This document shows positions 1,945-50,534 of a stretch of 64,000 nucleotides of DNA, one piece after another. The DNA comes from Bacteroidota bacterium (GTDB lineage Bacteria > Bacteroidota > Bacteroidia > Chitinophagales > Chitinophagaceae): assembly GCA_947452555.1 (NCBI GenBank), contig CANGDH010000001.1:124001-188000 (forward strand), given 5' to 3'. The first letter of the stretch is position 1. Each line of letters begins with the position of its first letter. A model generated the notes under the pieces. The model was not told the DNA's origin and made no database searches. It saw only the letters and a program-made list of their open reading frames with translations. A program made the translations under genes and the position numbers.

Positions 1945-1976
1945 TTTGGTTAAAAATATTGAATACCTTAATTTTG
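1945..1976 (+). promoter_or_regulatory. Predicted Bacteroidota sigma-A-type promoter for trp leader: TTTG (1945-1948), 20 nt, TAATTTTG (1969-1976)
   Basis: Matches the -33 TTTG / -7 TAnnTTTG consensus with 20-nt spacing, directly before the leader ORF. Confidence 0.65.
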
Positions 1977-1983
1977 TATTCGA

Positions 1984-2040
1984 ATGAAAACAATAAACAA
2001 TTTTTGGTGGTGGCATACAAACTCCGTTGGGGTATTGTAG
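1984..2040 (+). CDS. trpL: trp operon leader peptide MKTINNFWWWHTNSVGVL (18 aa)
   Basis: ATG-to-TAG ORF with three consecutive TGG codons (2005-2013), placed between a promoter and an intrinsic terminator before trpE; below the ORF track size cutoff. Confidence 0.88.
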   Translation: MKTINNFWWWHTNSVGVL

Positions 2041-2069
2041 TGACATAGCCATATTGTCAAGATATACAT

Positions 2070-2105
2070 AAACCCCGACATGCAATGTCGGGGTTTATTT
2101 TTTTT
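2070..2105 (+). terminator. trp attenuator terminator
   Basis: Perfect 12-bp stem aaaccccgacat (2070-2081) / atgtcggggttt (2085-2096), loop gca, then T8 (2098-2105). Confidence 0.92.
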
Positions 2106-43206: not shown

Positions 43207-43296
43207 TTAATATTGGACTATTAGTTCTGCCCCTCAAAAGGCTTAGTTTGCCGACTAATAGTTATCAAACGTTTTCATATGGCAAGCAATCGTTAA

Positions 43297-43328
43297 AGAC
43301 CTCCCGTTTCTACGGGAGGTCTTTTTTT
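43297..43328 (+). terminator. Intrinsic terminator downstream of small lipoprotein
   Basis: 11-bp stem agacctcccgt / acgggaggtct, loop ttct, T-run. Confidence 0.92.
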
Positions 43329-43461: not shown

Positions 43462-43469
43462 TATCTTTG
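43462..43469 (+). promoter_or_regulatory. Predicted -7 element TATCTTTG for the aromatic leader
   Basis: Exact TAnnTTTG match, 4 nt before the leader ATG; no convincing -33 TTTG at usual spacing. Confidence 0.5.
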
Positions 43470-43473
43470 TCTC

Positions 43474-43560
43474 ATGATGAAAGCAAATAGCAACTGGTTT
43501 TACTTTTTCTTTTATTTCTACTTTAAACAAAGTAGCCGGGTAGTATTTGTAAAAGCTTAA
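43474..43560 (+). CDS. Aromatic-amino-acid leader peptide MMKANSNWFYFFFYFYFKQSSRVVFVKA (28 aa)
   Basis: Unbroken ORF with an uninterrupted W-F-Y-F-F-F-Y-F-Y-F run, followed by an intrinsic terminator and then pheA; absent from the ORF track. Confidence 0.88.
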   Translation: MMKANSNWFYFFFYFYFKQSSRVVFVKA

Positions 43561-43581
43561 AGAATTAACTAAATATACGAT

Positions 43582-43609
43582 CCCGGCCCACTAAGCCGGG
43601 TTTTTTTTT
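43582..43609 (+). terminator. Attenuator terminator upstream of pheA
   Basis: cccggc (43582-43587) / gccggg (43595-43600), loop ccactaa, T9 tail. Confidence 0.9.
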
Positions 43610-43655: not shown

Positions 43656-44492
43656 ATGAATAAAAAAGTAACAATACAGGGTTATGAAGGAAGTTTCCAT
43701 CAAGTGGCAGCTAGACAATTCTTTGGTAAGGATGTATCGGTTATTACTTGTGACACTTTTAGAGAAGTGGTGAAGATAGGCGCTGATCCAAAACTTTCTG
43801 ACGGAGCTGTAATGGCAATTGAAAATTCCATTGCCGGAAGCATCTTGCCTAATTATAATTTGTTACAAAAAAGCAAGTTGCAAGTTATCGGGGAAGTGTA
43901 TTTGTCAATCAGTCAAAATTTGTTGACTTACCCTGGTGTTAAATTGGAAGATATTAAGGAAGTGCATAGTCATCCAATGGCCATTTTGCAATGTCTTGAT
44001 TATTTAGAAAAACATAATTGGAAATTGGTTGAATCGGAGGATACTGCATTGAGTGCAAAACTGGTGCACCAACATAAAAGTAAACATGTAGCAGCTATCG
44101 CAAGTAAACTGGCGGCGCAGTTATATGACTTAAATGTAATCACCCCAGACATCCATACTTTAAAAAACAATATCACTCGTTTTTTGATTATGGTGCCTAG
44201 TACCAATAAAGTGGTCATTGAAAATGCGGACAAAGCGTCTATCTATTTTCAAACCGATCACTCAAAAGGTATTTTGTCAAAAGTGTTGGCAAAGATTGCG
44301 CAAGGCGGGGTGAATTTGAGCAAGTTGCAAAGTATGCCCATTCCAGGTAGTACTTTCAAATATGGGTTCTATGCAGATTTAGAGTTTGAGAATAATAAAC
44401 AAATTGAAAAAGTTTTAGCATCTCTTCAAGAGTTGACTAAAAGTTTTAAAGTTTTTGGATTGTATAAAAAAGGAAAAGTTGTAAAAGGCTAA
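43656..44492 (+). CDS. pheA: Prephenate dehydratase with ACT domain
   Basis: VTIQGYEGSFHQVAARQFF, AIENSIAGSILPNYNLL, NNITRFLIM, C-terminal ACT region; ATG 43656 preferred over TTG 43644. Confidence 0.93.
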   Translation: MNKKVTIQGYEGSFHQVAARQFFGKDVSVITCDTFREVVKIGADPKLSDGAVMAIENSIAGSILPNYNLLQKSKLQVIGEVYLSISQNLLTYPGVKLEDIKEVHSHPMAILQCLDYLEKHNWKLVESEDTALSAKLVHQHKSKHVAAIASKLAAQLYDLNVITPDIHTLKNNITRFLIMVPSTNKVVIENADKASIYFQTDHSKGILSKVLAKIAQGGVNLSKLQSMPIPGSTFKYGFYADLEFENNKQIEKVLASLQELTKSFKVFGLYKKGKVVKG

Positions 44493-44494
44493 CT

Positions 44495-45655
44495 ATGAAT
44501 TGGACATTATCACATAGGCTAGAGGGGATTGGTGAGTATTATTTCTCAACCAAATTGCGCGAAATTGACGAACTCAATAAAGCGGGTAAACAAATTATTA
44601 ATTTGGGTATTGGAAGTCCCGATTTGCCACCTCATCCAGACGTGATTAAAGTGTTACAAGAAGAATCAGCTAAGGACAATGTCCATGCTTATCAATCTTA
44701 TAAAGGTTCTCCAGTTTTGAGAGAAGCCATTGCTGAATGGTATAAAAAGTATTACGCGGTCTCCATAGCGCCCGCAACTGAAATACTTCCATTACTAGGA
44801 AGCAAGGAAGGCATCATGCACATTTGCATGACCTACCTAAATCAAGGAGATCAGGTCTTAATACCTAATCCTGGTTATCCTACGTATACAAGTGCAGTTA
44901 AGTTGGCAGGGGGCACCCCGCTTTACTATGAGCTAACTGCCGAGAACAATTGGGCACCTGACTTTGAAAATTTAGAAAAATCGGATTTATCAAAAGTGAA
45001 GTTAATGTGGGTGAACTATCCGCATATGCCTACCGGCCAAATTCCTACGCAACAATTATTTGAAAAGTTAGTAGCGTTTGGCAAGAAGCATCATATTTTA
45101 ATTTGTCATGATAATCCTTACAGTTTCATTTTGAATGAGCAACCCATGAGTTTGTTATCGGTGGAAGGCGCGAAGGAAGTAGTGATAGAGTTGAACTCTT
45201 TAAGCAAAAGCCAAAACATGGCAGGCTGGAGAGTGGGAATGTTGATTGCTGCAGAAGAAAGGGTCAATGAAATTCTAAGATTTAAATCCAATATGGATAG
45301 TGGTATGTTTTTACCTGTGCAATTAGCAGCAGCAAAAGCATTAAGCTTAGAAAAATCTTGGTATGATTCAGTAAATAAAATTTATACTGAACGTCGTGAA
45401 AAAGTTTTTGAACTGTTAGACACATTAGGTTGTGCATTTTCAAAACAACAAGTAGGGATGTTTGTTTGGGCTAAAATACCTGCGATTTATAAAGACGGTT
45501 ACGCTTTAAGCGATAAGGTTTTATATGAAGCAAATGTGTTTATTACACCTGGTGGTATTTTTGGTTCAGCTGGTAATGAATATATCCGTGTGAGCTTATG
45601 CGGTTCCATGGAAAAATTTAGTGAAGCTATTAAAAGAGTTAAAGCATGCGTTTAA
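44495..45655 (+). CDS. Class I/II PLP aminotransferase, probably aromatic/aspartate-type
   Basis: NLGIGSPDLPPHPDVI, IPNPGYPTYTSAVKLAGG, SLSKSQNMAGWRVG; operon context. Confidence 0.9.
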   Translation: MNWTLSHRLEGIGEYYFSTKLREIDELNKAGKQIINLGIGSPDLPPHPDVIKVLQEESAKDNVHAYQSYKGSPVLREAIAEWYKKYYAVSIAPATEILPLLGSKEGIMHICMTYLNQGDQVLIPNPGYPTYTSAVKLAGGTPLYYELTAENNWAPDFENLEKSDLSKVKLMWVNYPHMPTGQIPTQQLFEKLVAFGKKHHILICHDNPYSFILNEQPMSLLSVEGAKEVVIELNSLSKSQNMAGWRVGMLIAAEERVNEILRFKSNMDSGMFLPVQLAAAKALSLEKSWYDSVNKIYTERREKVFELLDTLGCAFSKQQVGMFVWAKIPAIYKDGYALSDKVLYEANVFITPGGIFGSAGNEYIRVSLCGSMEKFSEAIKRVKACV

Positions 45656-46485
45656 CAGTAATTGGTATTGGTTTAATTGGAGGCTCTTTGGCCTTGACAC
45701 TAAAGCGTAAAGGTTTAGTGAGCAAAGTCATTGGAGTAGACAACAATCCAGTGCATCAGGAACAAGCATTGAAATTAGGTATCGTTGACGAGATTATGTC
45801 TTTGGAAGAAGCTGTAAAATCATCTGACTTAATTGCCATTGCAACACCTGTAAATATTGCTGAAAAATTATTGCCAACTATTTTAGATTTGATTGACAAA
45901 CAAGTAGTGTTTGATTTAGGTTCAACTAAGGAGCGCATTGTCAACATTGCAAAGGCACACACAAAAAGTGGCCGATTTGTTCCAACTCACCCAATGTGGG
46001 GTACAGAATTCAGTGGTCCTAGTGCGGCTCAGGAAGACGCATTTAAGGAAAAAGCTGCTGTAGTTTGTAATAAAGAGCAAGTAGATGAAGATGCACTTAA
46101 ATTAGTTGAACAAGTATATCAAACACTAGGTATGCATATTTTATACATGGACGCTGTAAAGCATGATATCCATGTGGCTTATGTGAGTCATATATCACAT
46201 ATTACTTCTTTTGCATTGGCTAATACCGTGTTAGAGAAGGAAAAAGAGTCGGATGCTATTTTTGAATTAGCGAGTGGTGGTTTTGAAAGCACAGTGCGTT
46301 TGGCTAAGTCCAATGCTGCAATGTGGGTTCCCATCTTCATGCAAAATAAAGAAAATGTATTGGACGTATTGAATGAGCATATTAGTCAGTTACGCAAGTT
46401 TAAATCTTGTCTTGAAAAAGAAAATTTTGAATACTTGTCTGACTTAATTGAGAATGCGAATGGAATTAAAAGAATTTTAAAATAA
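45646..46485 (+). CDS. tyrA: Prephenate dehydrogenase
   Basis: VIGIGLIGGSLALTLK, PTHPMWGTEFSGPSAA, DAVKHDIHVAYVSHISHI. Confidence 0.93.
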   Translation: MRLTVIGIGLIGGSLALTLKRKGLVSKVIGVDNNPVHQEQALKLGIVDEIMSLEEAVKSSDLIAIATPVNIAEKLLPTILDLIDKQVVFDLGSTKERIVNIAKAHTKSGRFVPTHPMWGTEFSGPSAAQEDAFKEKAAVVCNKEQVDEDALKLVEQVYQTLGMHILYMDAVKHDIHVAYVSHISHITSFALANTVLEKEKESDAIFELASGGFESTVRLAKSNAAMWVPIFMQNKENVLDVLNEHISQLRKFKSCLEKENFEYLSDLIENANGIKRILK

Positions 46486-46518
46486 AATTCTAATTAAAAG
46501 AAAAGTAAAAAAACAAAA

Positions 46519-48324
46519 ATGAAGAAAACAGAAGAGATGGAAAATACAAATGAATTGATAGAGGCCGTTAAGTCGAAAAAGACATTCGTGGAAATTGGAA
46601 TAAATGAACAATTAGTTAAGGCTGTTACAGAATTAGGATATACACATGCTACTGAAATTCAAGAGCGTTCAATTCCAGTTTTAATAAGTGGAACAAAGGA
46701 TTTTATTGGTTTAGCACAAACAGGTACAGGTAAAACAGCTGCGTTTGGTTTGCCATTATTGCAGTTAATCAAAACTGCAGACAAATTTCCTCAAGCTTTG
46801 GTGGTTTGTCCAACAAGAGAATTGTGTATGCAAATCGTAAACGAATTGAATTTGTTTAAAAAGCATATACCAGGTTTACAAGTATTAGCAGTTTATGGCG
46901 GTACTTCAATTGGATTACAAATTAGAGACTTGAAAAGAGGTATTCAAATTATTGTAGCTACTCCAGGTCGTTTAATTGACTTGATAGAAAGAAAAGCAAT
47001 TAATTTAGAGCAAATCGAGTATGTAGTATTAGATGAGGCAGATGAAATGTTGAACATGGGATTCCAAGAAGACATTGAATTTATTTTAAAGAATACACCT
47101 AACAGAGAAAGTATTTGGTTATTTAGTGCAACAATGCCAACTGAAATCAGAAAAGTAAGTAAGCGTTACATGAAAGAGCCGGTAGAAGTAACTATTGGTA
47201 AAGTGAATGCAACCAATAAAAGTATTGATCATCAATATTATGTTACCTCTGCACAATATCGTTACGAGACTTTAAAAAGAATTATTGATTTCAATCCAGG
47301 TATTTATGGTATCATTTTCACACGTACTAAGGCAGATGCACAAGACGTTGCAGCTCGTTTAACACGTGAAGGATATGATATAGATGCGATTCATGGCGAC
47401 TTAACGCAACAACAACGCGATAGAGTAATGGGTCAGTTTAGAGACAAGACTTTACAATTATTAATTGCAACTGACGTAGCTGCTCGTGGTATTGACGTAA
47501 AAGGGATTACACATGTAATCAACTATGAATTACCAGATGACGTTGAAGTATACACACATAGAAGTGGCCGTACAGGTCGTGCGGGTAGTCAAGGTATTTG
47601 TATCTCAATTGTACATGCAAGAGAATCATACAGATTACGTCAAATTGAGAACATCAACAAAAGCACTTTTCATAAATTAGATATCCCTAGTGGTAAGGAT
47701 GTTTGTAGAAAACAATTCTTCCACGTAATGGACAAGTTAATGTCAACAGACGTGAGTCATGGTGATTATGAAACTTATGTACCAATGTTAGCGGAGAAAT
47801 TTGCAGACATGACTAAGGAAGAAATTTTGAAAAGAGTAGCTGCTTTAGAATTCAATCGTTTCTTAAGCTATTATGAAAATGCTGCCGACTTAAATGTTAG
47901 AGCTGCTGAAAGATCTAATGGTCGCAGAGAACCAATGCAACAACAAGATCGTAACCGTGATAGAGGTCGCAATGAATTCCAAGATCGTGGAGACAGCCGC
48001 GGTGATCGTGGTGGAGACAGAGGTGGACGTAGCCAATCAAGAGGCGCTGCAGGTACAACACGTTTGTTTGTCAACTTAGGAACTAAGGACGGTTTTTACA
48101 AAGCAAGTTTCTTACAATACATTTTAGATATGAGTGAATTGAAAAAAGAAGCATTAGGTAAAATTGACATGAGAGACATGAATAGTTGGATCGAAATTGA
48201 ATCAGGTTCTGCTAAGAAAATGATTACTGCTATTGATGGTAAAAACTATAAAGGTCGTCGTATTCGCATGAATGATGCAGATAGTGGTGGTCCAAAAGGG
48301 TTTTCAAATAATAATGAAGGATAG
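46519..48324 (+). CDS. deaD: DEAD-box RNA helicase with DbpA/CsdA-like RNA-binding domain and R/G/D-rich linker
   Basis: AQTGTGKTAAFGLP, PTRELCMQI, VLDEADEMLNMGF, SATMP, HRSGRTGRAG; C-term TRLFVNLGTKDGFYKASFLQYI. Confidence 0.94.
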   Translation: MKKTEEMENTNELIEAVKSKKTFVEIGINEQLVKAVTELGYTHATEIQERSIPVLISGTKDFIGLAQTGTGKTAAFGLPLLQLIKTADKFPQALVVCPTRELCMQIVNELNLFKKHIPGLQVLAVYGGTSIGLQIRDLKRGIQIIVATPGRLIDLIERKAINLEQIEYVVLDEADEMLNMGFQEDIEFILKNTPNRESIWLFSATMPTEIRKVSKRYMKEPVEVTIGKVNATNKSIDHQYYVTSAQYRYETLKRIIDFNPGIYGIIFTRTKADAQDVAARLTREGYDIDAIHGDLTQQQRDRVMGQFRDKTLQLLIATDVAARGIDVKGITHVINYELPDDVEVYTHRSGRTGRAGSQGICISIVHARESYRLRQIENINKSTFHKLDIPSGKDVCRKQFFHVMDKLMSTDVSHGDYETYVPMLAEKFADMTKEEILKRVAALEFNRFLSYYENAADLNVRAAERSNGRREPMQQQDRNRDRGRNEFQDRGDSRGDRGGDRGGRSQSRGAAGTTRLFVNLGTKDGFYKASFLQYILDMSELKKEALGKIDMRDMNSWIEIESGSAKKMITAIDGKNYKGRRIRMNDADSGGPKGFSNNNEG

Positions 48325-48380
48325 TCCTTCGGTAGTTAAAACAAAAAATAAATATCTTAAATACAAAAATTGCTTAAAAA

Positions 48381-49466
48381 ATGGGAACCTTAACTGAACA
48401 ACAACAAAAAGTAAGCACGTTATTAAAAAAAGCACCATTAATTATTTCTGGTCCTTGTAGTGCAGAAACAGAAGAACAAGTAATGCAAACTGCTATTAGA
48501 TTAGCAGCTACTGGAAAAGTAGATATCATGCGTGCTGGTATCTGGAAACCAAGAACAAGACCGGGAAGTTTCGAAGGTATTGGAACTAAAGGTTTGCCTT
48601 GGATGCAACAAGCTAAAAAAGAAACTGGTTTGCCAATTGCAGTGGAAGTTGCAACTGCAAAACAAGTGGAAGATGCATTGCATTTTGATGTTGATGTATT
48701 ATGGGTGGGAGCTCGTACTACAGTAAATCCTTTTAGTGTGCAAGAAATTGCAGATGCATTAAGAGGGGTTAAAGTTCCTGTTTTAATTAAGAACCCGTTA
48801 AACCCTGATTTAGAATTATGGGTTGGTGGGATGGAACGTATTGCGAAAGCAGGCATTGAAGACTTAGGTTTAATACATAGAGGATTTAGTTCTTATGGGA
48901 ATACAGATTTCCGTAACGCTCCAATGTGGCATTTAGCTATCGAAATGAAGCGACGTTACCCAGGAATTCCAATGATCAATGACCCTTCACATATTTGTGG
49001 ACGTCGTGATATTTTACAAGAAGTAGCTCAACAGGCAATGGACTTAGACTTTGACGGGTTAATCATTGAATCTCATATTGATCCAGACAATGCATGGAGT
49101 GATGCAAAACAACAAATCACGCCAGAAGTATTGAAGGAAATGTTGGAGGCAATCCGTTGGAGAAAAGAAGATAATAATTCAGAAGATTTCCATAGTGCTT
49201 TAGAGAAATTCCGTCAACAAATTAACCAATTAGATGACGAATTATTACAAGTATTGTCTTCACGTATGAAAGTGGCACAAAAAATCGGTGAATACAAAAA
49301 GAACAACGATATCACAATTTTACAAACTAGCCGTTGGAATGAAATTTTAGAAAGAGCCATTTCAAAAGGAGAAAAATTAGGATTGACCGACGAGTTTGTT
49401 ACTAAATATATGGACGCAGTTCATATGGAAAGTATCAATCATCAAAATAAAGTAATGAATAGCTAG
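48381..49466 (+). CDS. Bifunctional DAHP synthase / chorismate mutase type II
   Basis: GPCSAETEEQVMQTA, RAGIWKPRTRPGSFEG, NDPSHICGRRD, C-terminal LEKFRQQINQLDDELLQVLSSRMKVAQKIGEYK. Confidence 0.94.
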   Translation: MGTLTEQQQKVSTLLKKAPLIISGPCSAETEEQVMQTAIRLAATGKVDIMRAGIWKPRTRPGSFEGIGTKGLPWMQQAKKETGLPIAVEVATAKQVEDALHFDVDVLWVGARTTVNPFSVQEIADALRGVKVPVLIKNPLNPDLELWVGGMERIAKAGIEDLGLIHRGFSSYGNTDFRNAPMWHLAIEMKRRYPGIPMINDPSHICGRRDILQEVAQQAMDLDFDGLIIESHIDPDNAWSDAKQQITPEVLKEMLEAIRWRKEDNNSEDFHSALEKFRQQINQLDDELLQVLSSRMKVAQKIGEYKKNNDITILQTSRWNEILERAISKGEKLGLTDEFVTKYMDAVHMESINHQNKVMNS

Positions 49467-49511
49467 GACTTTAAATTTAATGATTTAAGTACTATTTAAA
49501 TTTTGACAGGT

Positions 49512-50534
49512 ATGAAAAATTGGAAAGTAAAATTTTCGAGCGCGACAGTAACATTTGTATTAGATGGCAAATTTGCAGCTATTGATAAAATGGTGGATAA
49601 AGCAAATGCAATTTATATTACAGACGAGAATGTATATGCCTTACATGAGAAAAAATTTAAAGGAAAAAAAACTATAGTGATTCCTTCAGGGGAAGAACAT
49701 AAGCATCAAGCAACTGTTGACTTTATTATTGAAGCGTTATTGAATTTTGGAGCTACACGACAAGCAGTTTTAATTGGCGTTGGTGGTGGAGTGGTAACCG
49801 ACATGGTAGGTTATGTTGCAGGTGTTTACATGCGAGGTGTGGCGGTTGGCTTTGTGCCTACCACCATACTTGCTATGGTGGACGCTTCTATTGGCGGAAA
49901 GAATGGCATAGATGTTGGGATATATAAAAATATGGTTGGATTAATAAGACAACCTGCTTTTATATTACATGACCTAAGTTTTTTACAATCTTTACCAAAA
50001 TACCAATGGGAAAACGGATTTGCTGAAATCATCAAACACGCAGCTATCAAGGATGCAAAAATGATGAAGGAATTGAGTGAAAACGATTTGGCTTTTTATC
50101 AAAAAAACACAAAAGCATTAACTGTGCTTATTGAAAAAAATGTGCAGATTAAAGTCAAAGTGGTACAAAAGGATGAATTCGAAAAAGGCGATAGGAAATT
50201 ATTAAATTTTGGACATACACTGGGGCATGCTATTGAGAATGAACATGCATTATTACATGGTCATGCTATTAGTATAGGAATGGTGTATGCTGCAAAAATC
50301 TCACAAGTATTACAAGGATTTACAGGTACAGGATTATTAGTAGACACTCTTAAGCAATATGGCTTGCCAACGGCAATGCATTTTAATGTGGAAGAAGCGA
50401 TGGTAGTGATGCAAAAAGATAAGAAAAAAGCTACGGCAGGAATGCAGTATGTTTTATTGAATAAGATGGGTAAGGGAGTTATTGAAACCATCCCTATGAA
50501 AACATTACAAAAATTGATAAACTTGTATTCATAA
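49512..50534 (+). CDS. aroB: 3-dehydroquinate synthase
   Basis: VIPSGEEHKH, GVGGGVVTDMVGYVAGVYMRGV, VDASIGGKNGID, NFGHTLGHAIE. Confidence 0.95.
   Translation: MKNWKVKFSSATVTFVLDGKFAAIDKMVDKANAIYITDENVYALHEKKFKGKKTIVIPSGEEHKHQATVDFIIEALLNFGATRQAVLIGVGGGVVTDMVGYVAGVYMRGVAVGFVPTTILAMVDASIGGKNGIDVGIYKNMVGLIRQPAFILHDLSFLQSLPKYQWENGFAEIIKHAAIKDAKMMKELSENDLAFYQKNTKALTVLIEKNVQIKVKVVQKDEFEKGDRKLLNFGHTLGHAIENEHALLHGHAISIGMVYAAKISQVLQGFTGTGLLVDTLKQYGLPTAMHFNVEEAMVVMQKDKKKATAGMQYVLLNKMGKGVIETIPMKTLQKLINLYS

Follow-up and report, generated by a model that had tools for sequence, protein, structure and literature searches.

What is a short open reading frame (ORF) dense in aromatic codons doing ahead of pheA, and why does it carry a copy of one arm of the terminator that follows it? 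The locus lies in a stretch of 64,000 nucleotides (here, the window) from a genome of the Chitinophagaceae, in the phylum Bacteroidota. A sequence-only reading had claimed that GCCGGG at 43535-43540, inside the leader ORF, duplicates the terminator 3′ arm (GCCGGG, 43595-43600) and is complementary to the 5′ arm (CCCGGC, 43582-43587); all three positions were exactly as claimed, and the coordinates bear out both the identity and the complementarity. The 10-nt gap claimed between the control run and the hexamer also held, the last codon of the aromatic run ending at 43524. The hexamer was said to encode Ser-Arg, and it does touch codons for both residues, but it extends into a Val codon as well (AGC-CGG-GTA). 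The features of the locus are as follows.

43462..43469, + strand: −7 box of the phe leader, TATCTTTG, matching the Bacteroidota sigma-A motif TAnnTTTG; predicted RNA start at 43474, the A of the leader ATG
43474..43560, + strand: leader ORF, MMKANSNWFYFFFYFYFKQSSRVVFVKA and stop; 28 aa, or 27 aa from a second ATG at 43477
43483..43506, + strand: segment 1; blocks GCAAATA, CTGGT, and ACTTTT pair with segment 2
43495..43524, + strand: control codons, W-F-Y-F-F-F-Y-F-Y-F
43529..43550, + strand: segment 2 (the proposed decoy plus its flanks); core GCCGGG at 43535-43540, GTAT at 43543-43546; covariation
43575..43587, + strand: segment 3, the terminator 5′ arm; ATAC at 43575-43578, CCCGGC at 43582-43587
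43595..43609, + strand: segment 4; GCCGGG at 43595-43600 and a T9 tract, completing the terminator
43656..44492, + strand: pheA, prephenate dehydratase (PF00800), first gene of the controlled operon
44495..50534, + strand: genes 3′ of pheA, for an aminotransferase, prephenate dehydrogenase (tyrA), a DEAD-box RNA helicase, DAHP synthase-chorismate mutase, and 3-dehydroquinate synthase (aroB)

All 10 codons of the control run in the predicted leader ORF specify aromatic residues, the end products of the pathway, and the content of the operon downstream (the Phe/Tyr pathway) matches them. Gene spacing suggests that pheA to aroB are cotranscribed. The helicase gene, which has a DbpA-type domain, lies at 46519-48324 between tyrA and the DAHP synthase gene. 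An intrinsic terminator stands between the leader ORF and pheA, as it did in nearly all loci compared; it sits between the promoter box and pheA, and a separate terminator is located upstream, at 43295-43324. The control run, the terminator, the pairing, and the aromatic operon downstream thus agree with the proposal that the leader at 43474-43560 belongs to an aromatic attenuator. Formally, the hexamer could be a chance copy beside an ordinary intergenic terminator, as short GC-rich hexamers can recur and terminators are common. However, only 42 of 100,000 mononucleotide shuffles of the 36-nt stretch following the control codons recreated it, the terminator has a promoter box on one side and pheA on the other and is 3′ of the separate terminator at 43295-43324, and the arrangement is conserved in dozens of genera with covariation. 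GCCGGG is also rare: 748 kb of this genome (34% G+C) contain only 28 copies, both strands counted. The conservation data, together with the permutations and shuffled scans described below, led us to reject chance, which we regard as extraordinarily improbable.

A PheA protein search gave a match in 44 of 61 Chitinophagaceae genomes, and an aromatic leader ORF preceded pheA at every one of the 30 family loci examined. In a second collection of named relatives (Sediminibacterium, Lacibacter, Segetibacter, Terrimonas, and many Chitinophagaceae metagenome-assembled genomes), the leader was found at 74 of 80 loci; 3 of the 6 loci lacking it have less than 190 nt of upstream sequence. Beyond the family, 21 of 22 loci sampled from the same order or class and from three further lineages had the leader, and none preceded pheA at 16 loci from more distant Bacteroidota lineages. 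Across the codons corresponding to 43477-43524 in 47 close relatives (loci L246 to L295), most third positions of the control codons are fixed (TTC TTT TAT TTC TAC TTT), and the adjoining codons vary.

Of 60 leaders folded as RNA minus the terminator 3′ arm, nearly all paired segment 2 with the terminator 5′ arm, and the resulting antiterminator helix exceeded the hexamer. In one class of leaders, GCCGGGA, CTTT, and TGTTGA face TCAACA, AAAG, and TCCCGGC; in the other, GCCGGG and GTAT face ATAC and CCCGGC. The segment 2:segment 3 (2:3) duplex averaged −21.2 kcal/mol with a locus's own partners versus −17.6 kcal/mol when partners were swapped between loci, and the corresponding values in other families were −14.0 and −9.6; 0 of 5,000 permutations were as good in either comparison. 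Pair counting in the two class alignments gave 87% and 94% of cells paired, with several both-sided changes (0 of 500 shuffles as good; at most 52% paired when the partner was slid). Covariation thus supports a 2:3 antiterminator that is mutually exclusive with the terminator.

The identity of segment 2 to the 3′ arm had been the starting observation, and loci at which the strands diverge (L006, L013, L022, and L028) separate identity from pairing. At these loci, segment 2 tracks the 5′ arm and not the 3′ arm, as in L006 (ACCGGGA with TCCCGGT), L022 (GCCAGGATT with AATCCTGGC), and L028 (CCGGAGG with CCTCCGG); in L305, all three strands were altered together. These comparisons indicate that the GCCGGG strand is real and under selection and that the conserved property is pairing with the 5′ arm rather than identity to the 3′ arm. 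The resemblance of segment 2 to that arm therefore follows, since both strands share one partner, and what had been called a decoy copy is better called an ordinary antiterminator strand, segment 2. One could instead suppose that the ORF is selected as a small functional peptide with the complementarity arising as a by-product: both the aromatic run and the length of the leader ORF are conserved, and leader peptides can act in trans, as does peTrpL in Sinorhizobium (PMC7298713). However, all three reading frames across the hexamer are in use among the genomes (KPG, SRV, and RAG), and the residues differ, so that nucleotides rather than amino acids are kept. The strand also follows the terminator 5′ arm through compensatory changes, and the pattern of fixed third positions in the control codons beside variable flanking codons likewise argues against the peptide. 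Peptide-level selection on the strand was rejected on account of the three reading frames in use, and selection of the ORF as a peptide appears very improbable.

The sequence-only reading had also pointed to a second leader of the same arrangement in the window, and the trp leader does have the same order of parts as the phe leader.

1969..1976, + strand: −7 box of the trp leader, TAATTTTG, 7 nt before the trp ATG
1984..2040, + strand: Trp leader ORF, MKTINNFWWWHTNSVGVL and stop
2026..2033, + strand: trp segment 2, GTTGGGGT, forming 8 bp with ACCCCGAC at 2072-2079
2067..2105, + strand: trp terminator hairpin (stem 2067-2097) and T tract

This leader (WWWHTN...) was present at 30 of 30 loci, with the same plan as the phe leader. 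Its 2:3 pairing was locus specific, with 3 of 5,000 permutations as good, and the effect was small; alignment-based counting revealed no covariation in this helix, probably because of register shifts.

The trp and phe leaders both contain a further, conserved element, a segment 1:segment 2 (1:2) hairpin that would sequester the antiterminator strand. In trp leaders, the Trp codons pair with sequence just 3′ of the stop codon, with 86.8% of cells paired and clear covariation (0 of 500 shuffles as good; at most 53% paired when slid), and this hairpin explains why TAATGGCATTGCC is conserved 3′ of the trp stop. In phe leaders, it is the 5′ portion of the ORF (AAAGCAT..CCGG or GCAAATACA) that pairs, its partner being segment 2 plus the adjoining 3′ sequence (CCGG..ATGCTTT or TGTATTTGC); the pairing had a z score below −2 in 26 of 30 leaders and was locus specific (0 of 5,000 permutations as good). 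Alignment-based counting gave weak support to the phe hairpin in one class, where 83 to 137 of 500 shuffles did as well on covariation measures, and moderate support in the other class. CTACTTT in the control run can also pair with AAAGTAG directly 5′ of the hexamer. Folded singly against shuffles, the window's own leaders gave modest z scores, −1.25 (phe) and −1.62 (trp) for the 1:2 pairing and −1.94 (phe) and −2.43 (trp) for the 2:3 pairing, and because they only modestly beat shuffles, the case for pairing rests on comparison. A minimal attenuator of three strands, with the decoy copy and terminator sufficing and the 1:2 hairpin having no role, would fit the facts that the 2:3 and 3:4 (terminator) pairings are the strongest signals and that the window's own phe 1:2 hairpin scored so modestly. 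However, the locus-specific phe pairing and the covarying trp hairpin make this simpler device improbable, and we conclude that the initial picture was incomplete, having missed half of the device: the 1:2 hairpin and the full length of the antiterminator helix.

We therefore favor the reading that the region is very probably a complete four-segment, ribosome-mediated transcription attenuator of the aromatic operon. Its working steps, as outlined here, are drawn from the anatomy and from the well-known attenuation mechanism, and the start site, the ribosome stalling, and the regulation itself are all predicted in that way. The RNA would start at or within a few nucleotides of the leader AUG, so that a ribosome could load almost as soon as the RNA emerges. 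When charged tRNA-Phe or tRNA-Tyr is scarce, the ribosome would slow on the WFYFFFYFYF run and keep segment 1 away; segment 2 (GCCGGG, beginning 10 nt beyond the control run, plus the sequence 3′ of it) would thereby be available for pairing with segment 3. The 2:3 antiterminator would then consume the terminator 5′ arm, and RNA polymerase would continue into pheA-tyrA-aroF-aroB. When aromatic amino acids are plentiful, the ribosome would cover segment 2, which is inside the ORF, and the 3:4 hairpin would form, ending transcription at the T9 tract. If the leader were not translated, segment 2 would be tied up in the 1:2 hairpin, and termination would be the default.

It had been suggested that this grammar could be searched for, and our scan, which covered one contig (C1; 748 kb, about a third of the genome), put the phe leader at the top (score, 31.6), followed by the trp leader of the window (20.3). 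Sixty shuffled scans reached 20.0 at best, a value that the trp leader barely exceeds. The third top match (MTPWWWNW, C1:284445) overlaps an apparent tRNA gene and was rejected as a leader. Separately, 28 of 30 hisG loci proved to have a His leader of the same plan, with 79 of 5,000 permutations as good for its 2:3 complementarity; the contig scan missed it because the scan required T5. In this genome, the His leader (MTLNKHIHHHHLLSKG and stop) lies upstream of hisG at C1:119703 (locus L165), 4.3 kb before the window; its ATG is preceded, at 4 nt, by TAAATTTG, and the stop codon falls within its segment 2, GGGTAAGC. Relatives have Ile/Val/Leu leaders of the same plan (IIIVVVIIIP..GGG, with CCCGCCTCC terminators); those upstream of ilvD operons (L200 to L224; e.g., M..IIIVVVIIIPALNGGG and stop) are, by eye, not near-leaderless. 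No Ile/Val/Leu leader was found upstream of leuA or ilvD in this genome, whose sequence was covered for contig C1 and part of contig C9. Upstream of leuA at L226 (3300-3420), we observed a hairpin, AACGGGCTAAAAGCCCGTT, then TTGT, with the TAAATTTG motif before it and no Leu/Ile/Val leader. For a Thr/Ile leader before thrA, there was one convincing case (L233) among 19 relatives and none in this genome. The grammar is therefore searchable but not common here: on the one contig, only the phe and trp leaders and the separately found his leader fit it.

The attenuators of textbook proteobacterial trp, phe, and his operons comprise a leader ORF with codons for the operon's amino acid, a 1:2 hairpin, a 2:3 antiterminator, and a 3:4 terminator. 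In E. coli trp, segment 2 follows the stop codon, unlike the phe segment 2 described here, which is wholly within the ORF. The leaders reported here share the scheme of the proteobacterial families in Rfam (RF00513, Trp_leader; RF01859, Phe_leader; RF00514, His_leader) but differ in their near-zero 5′ untranslated region (UTR). No Rfam family reached its cutoff on these leaders: the phe leader scored 22.6 bits with Phe_leader (gathering threshold, 55), and the window's trp leader scored 18.3 bits with Trp_leader (threshold, 41). The rnk_pseudo score for the trp leader, 40.4 of 55 bits, seems to reflect a generic hairpin and was set aside.

The shared grammar had been described as lineage specific, a claim that does not stand, as its logic is the textbook one and actinobacterial trp attenuators, proposed by analogy with proteobacteria, carry the same complementary triples (gGCC-rGCy-GGCC; Seliverstov 2005, PMC1262725). 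The actinobacterial attenuators have the same three mutually complementary strands but belong to another phylum and have other sequences. According to a survey published in 2010, its authors knew of no demonstration of leader-peptide systems beyond Proteobacteria and Actinobacteria prior to their own Firmicutes case (PMC2965389). In Flavobacteriaceae, the main text of a 2021 study of Flavobacterium psychrophilum noted structured elements upstream of pheA and hisG, with “strong clues” of leader-peptide attenuation and no Rfam match (PMC9723704). These elements precede the same genes in the same phylum and, as here, have no Rfam hit; that main text is without strand anatomy, and the layout that we describe is from another family. 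The kind of mechanism is thus already known, and it is barely described in this bacterial family in the open-access literature.

According to the same study, the Bacteroidota sigma-A −7 box TAnnTTTG maps at −12 to −5 in F. psychrophilum (PMC9723704). From the end of the box to the leader ATG, the distances in this genome are 4 nt (phe), 7 nt (trp), and 4 nt (His), the starts being predicted. At the family loci, a slightly relaxed box lay 4 to 10 nt from the ATG in 26 of 30 phe leaders and in 25 of 30 trp leaders; with a strict box, 57 of 72 phe leaders in the second collection had 4 to 8 nt. As a control, of 14,273 arbitrary ATGs on the contig, only 81 had a strict box at such spacing. Leaders of other families mostly had about 17 to 24 nt where a box was seen. 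Among 622 predicted genes of contig C1, the distance from TAnnTTTG to ATG was bimodal, 17 genes forming a narrow peak at 4 nt and a second, broad peak lying at 15 to 30 nt; distances of 10 to 14 nt to a gene start were almost absent. A regular minority of starts in this genome thus seems to be leaderless, so that attenuators are not unique in having them. The Sinorhizobium meliloti trpL leader ORF is leaderless, its RNA beginning at the trpL ATG (PMC7298713), as predicted here, but that case concerns one operon of an alphaproteobacterium, whereas here three operons, and most of the family, are predicted to have the near-leaderless layout. From the box positions, this near-leaderless layout, with its near-zero 5′ UTR, does look lineage specific, and it is the one unusual trait. 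A possible but rather doubtful extension is that the phe, trp, and his attenuators of the Chitinophagaceae shifted as a group to leaderless or near-leaderless translation, near-leaderless starts having been selected in attenuators specifically; the first ribosome would load on the emerging 5′ AUG, and its timing relative to RNA polymerase would be set without an initiation region.

These results provide a clean, covariation-supported anatomy for Bacteroidota amino acid attenuators, for which Rfam is without a matching model and which the open-access literature that we found only mentions. They imply that transcription and translation are coupled closely enough for ribosome-timed attenuation in a phylum that uses little Shine-Dalgarno pairing, and the near-leaderless layout leads to a testable prediction on the synchronization of the first ribosome with RNA polymerase.
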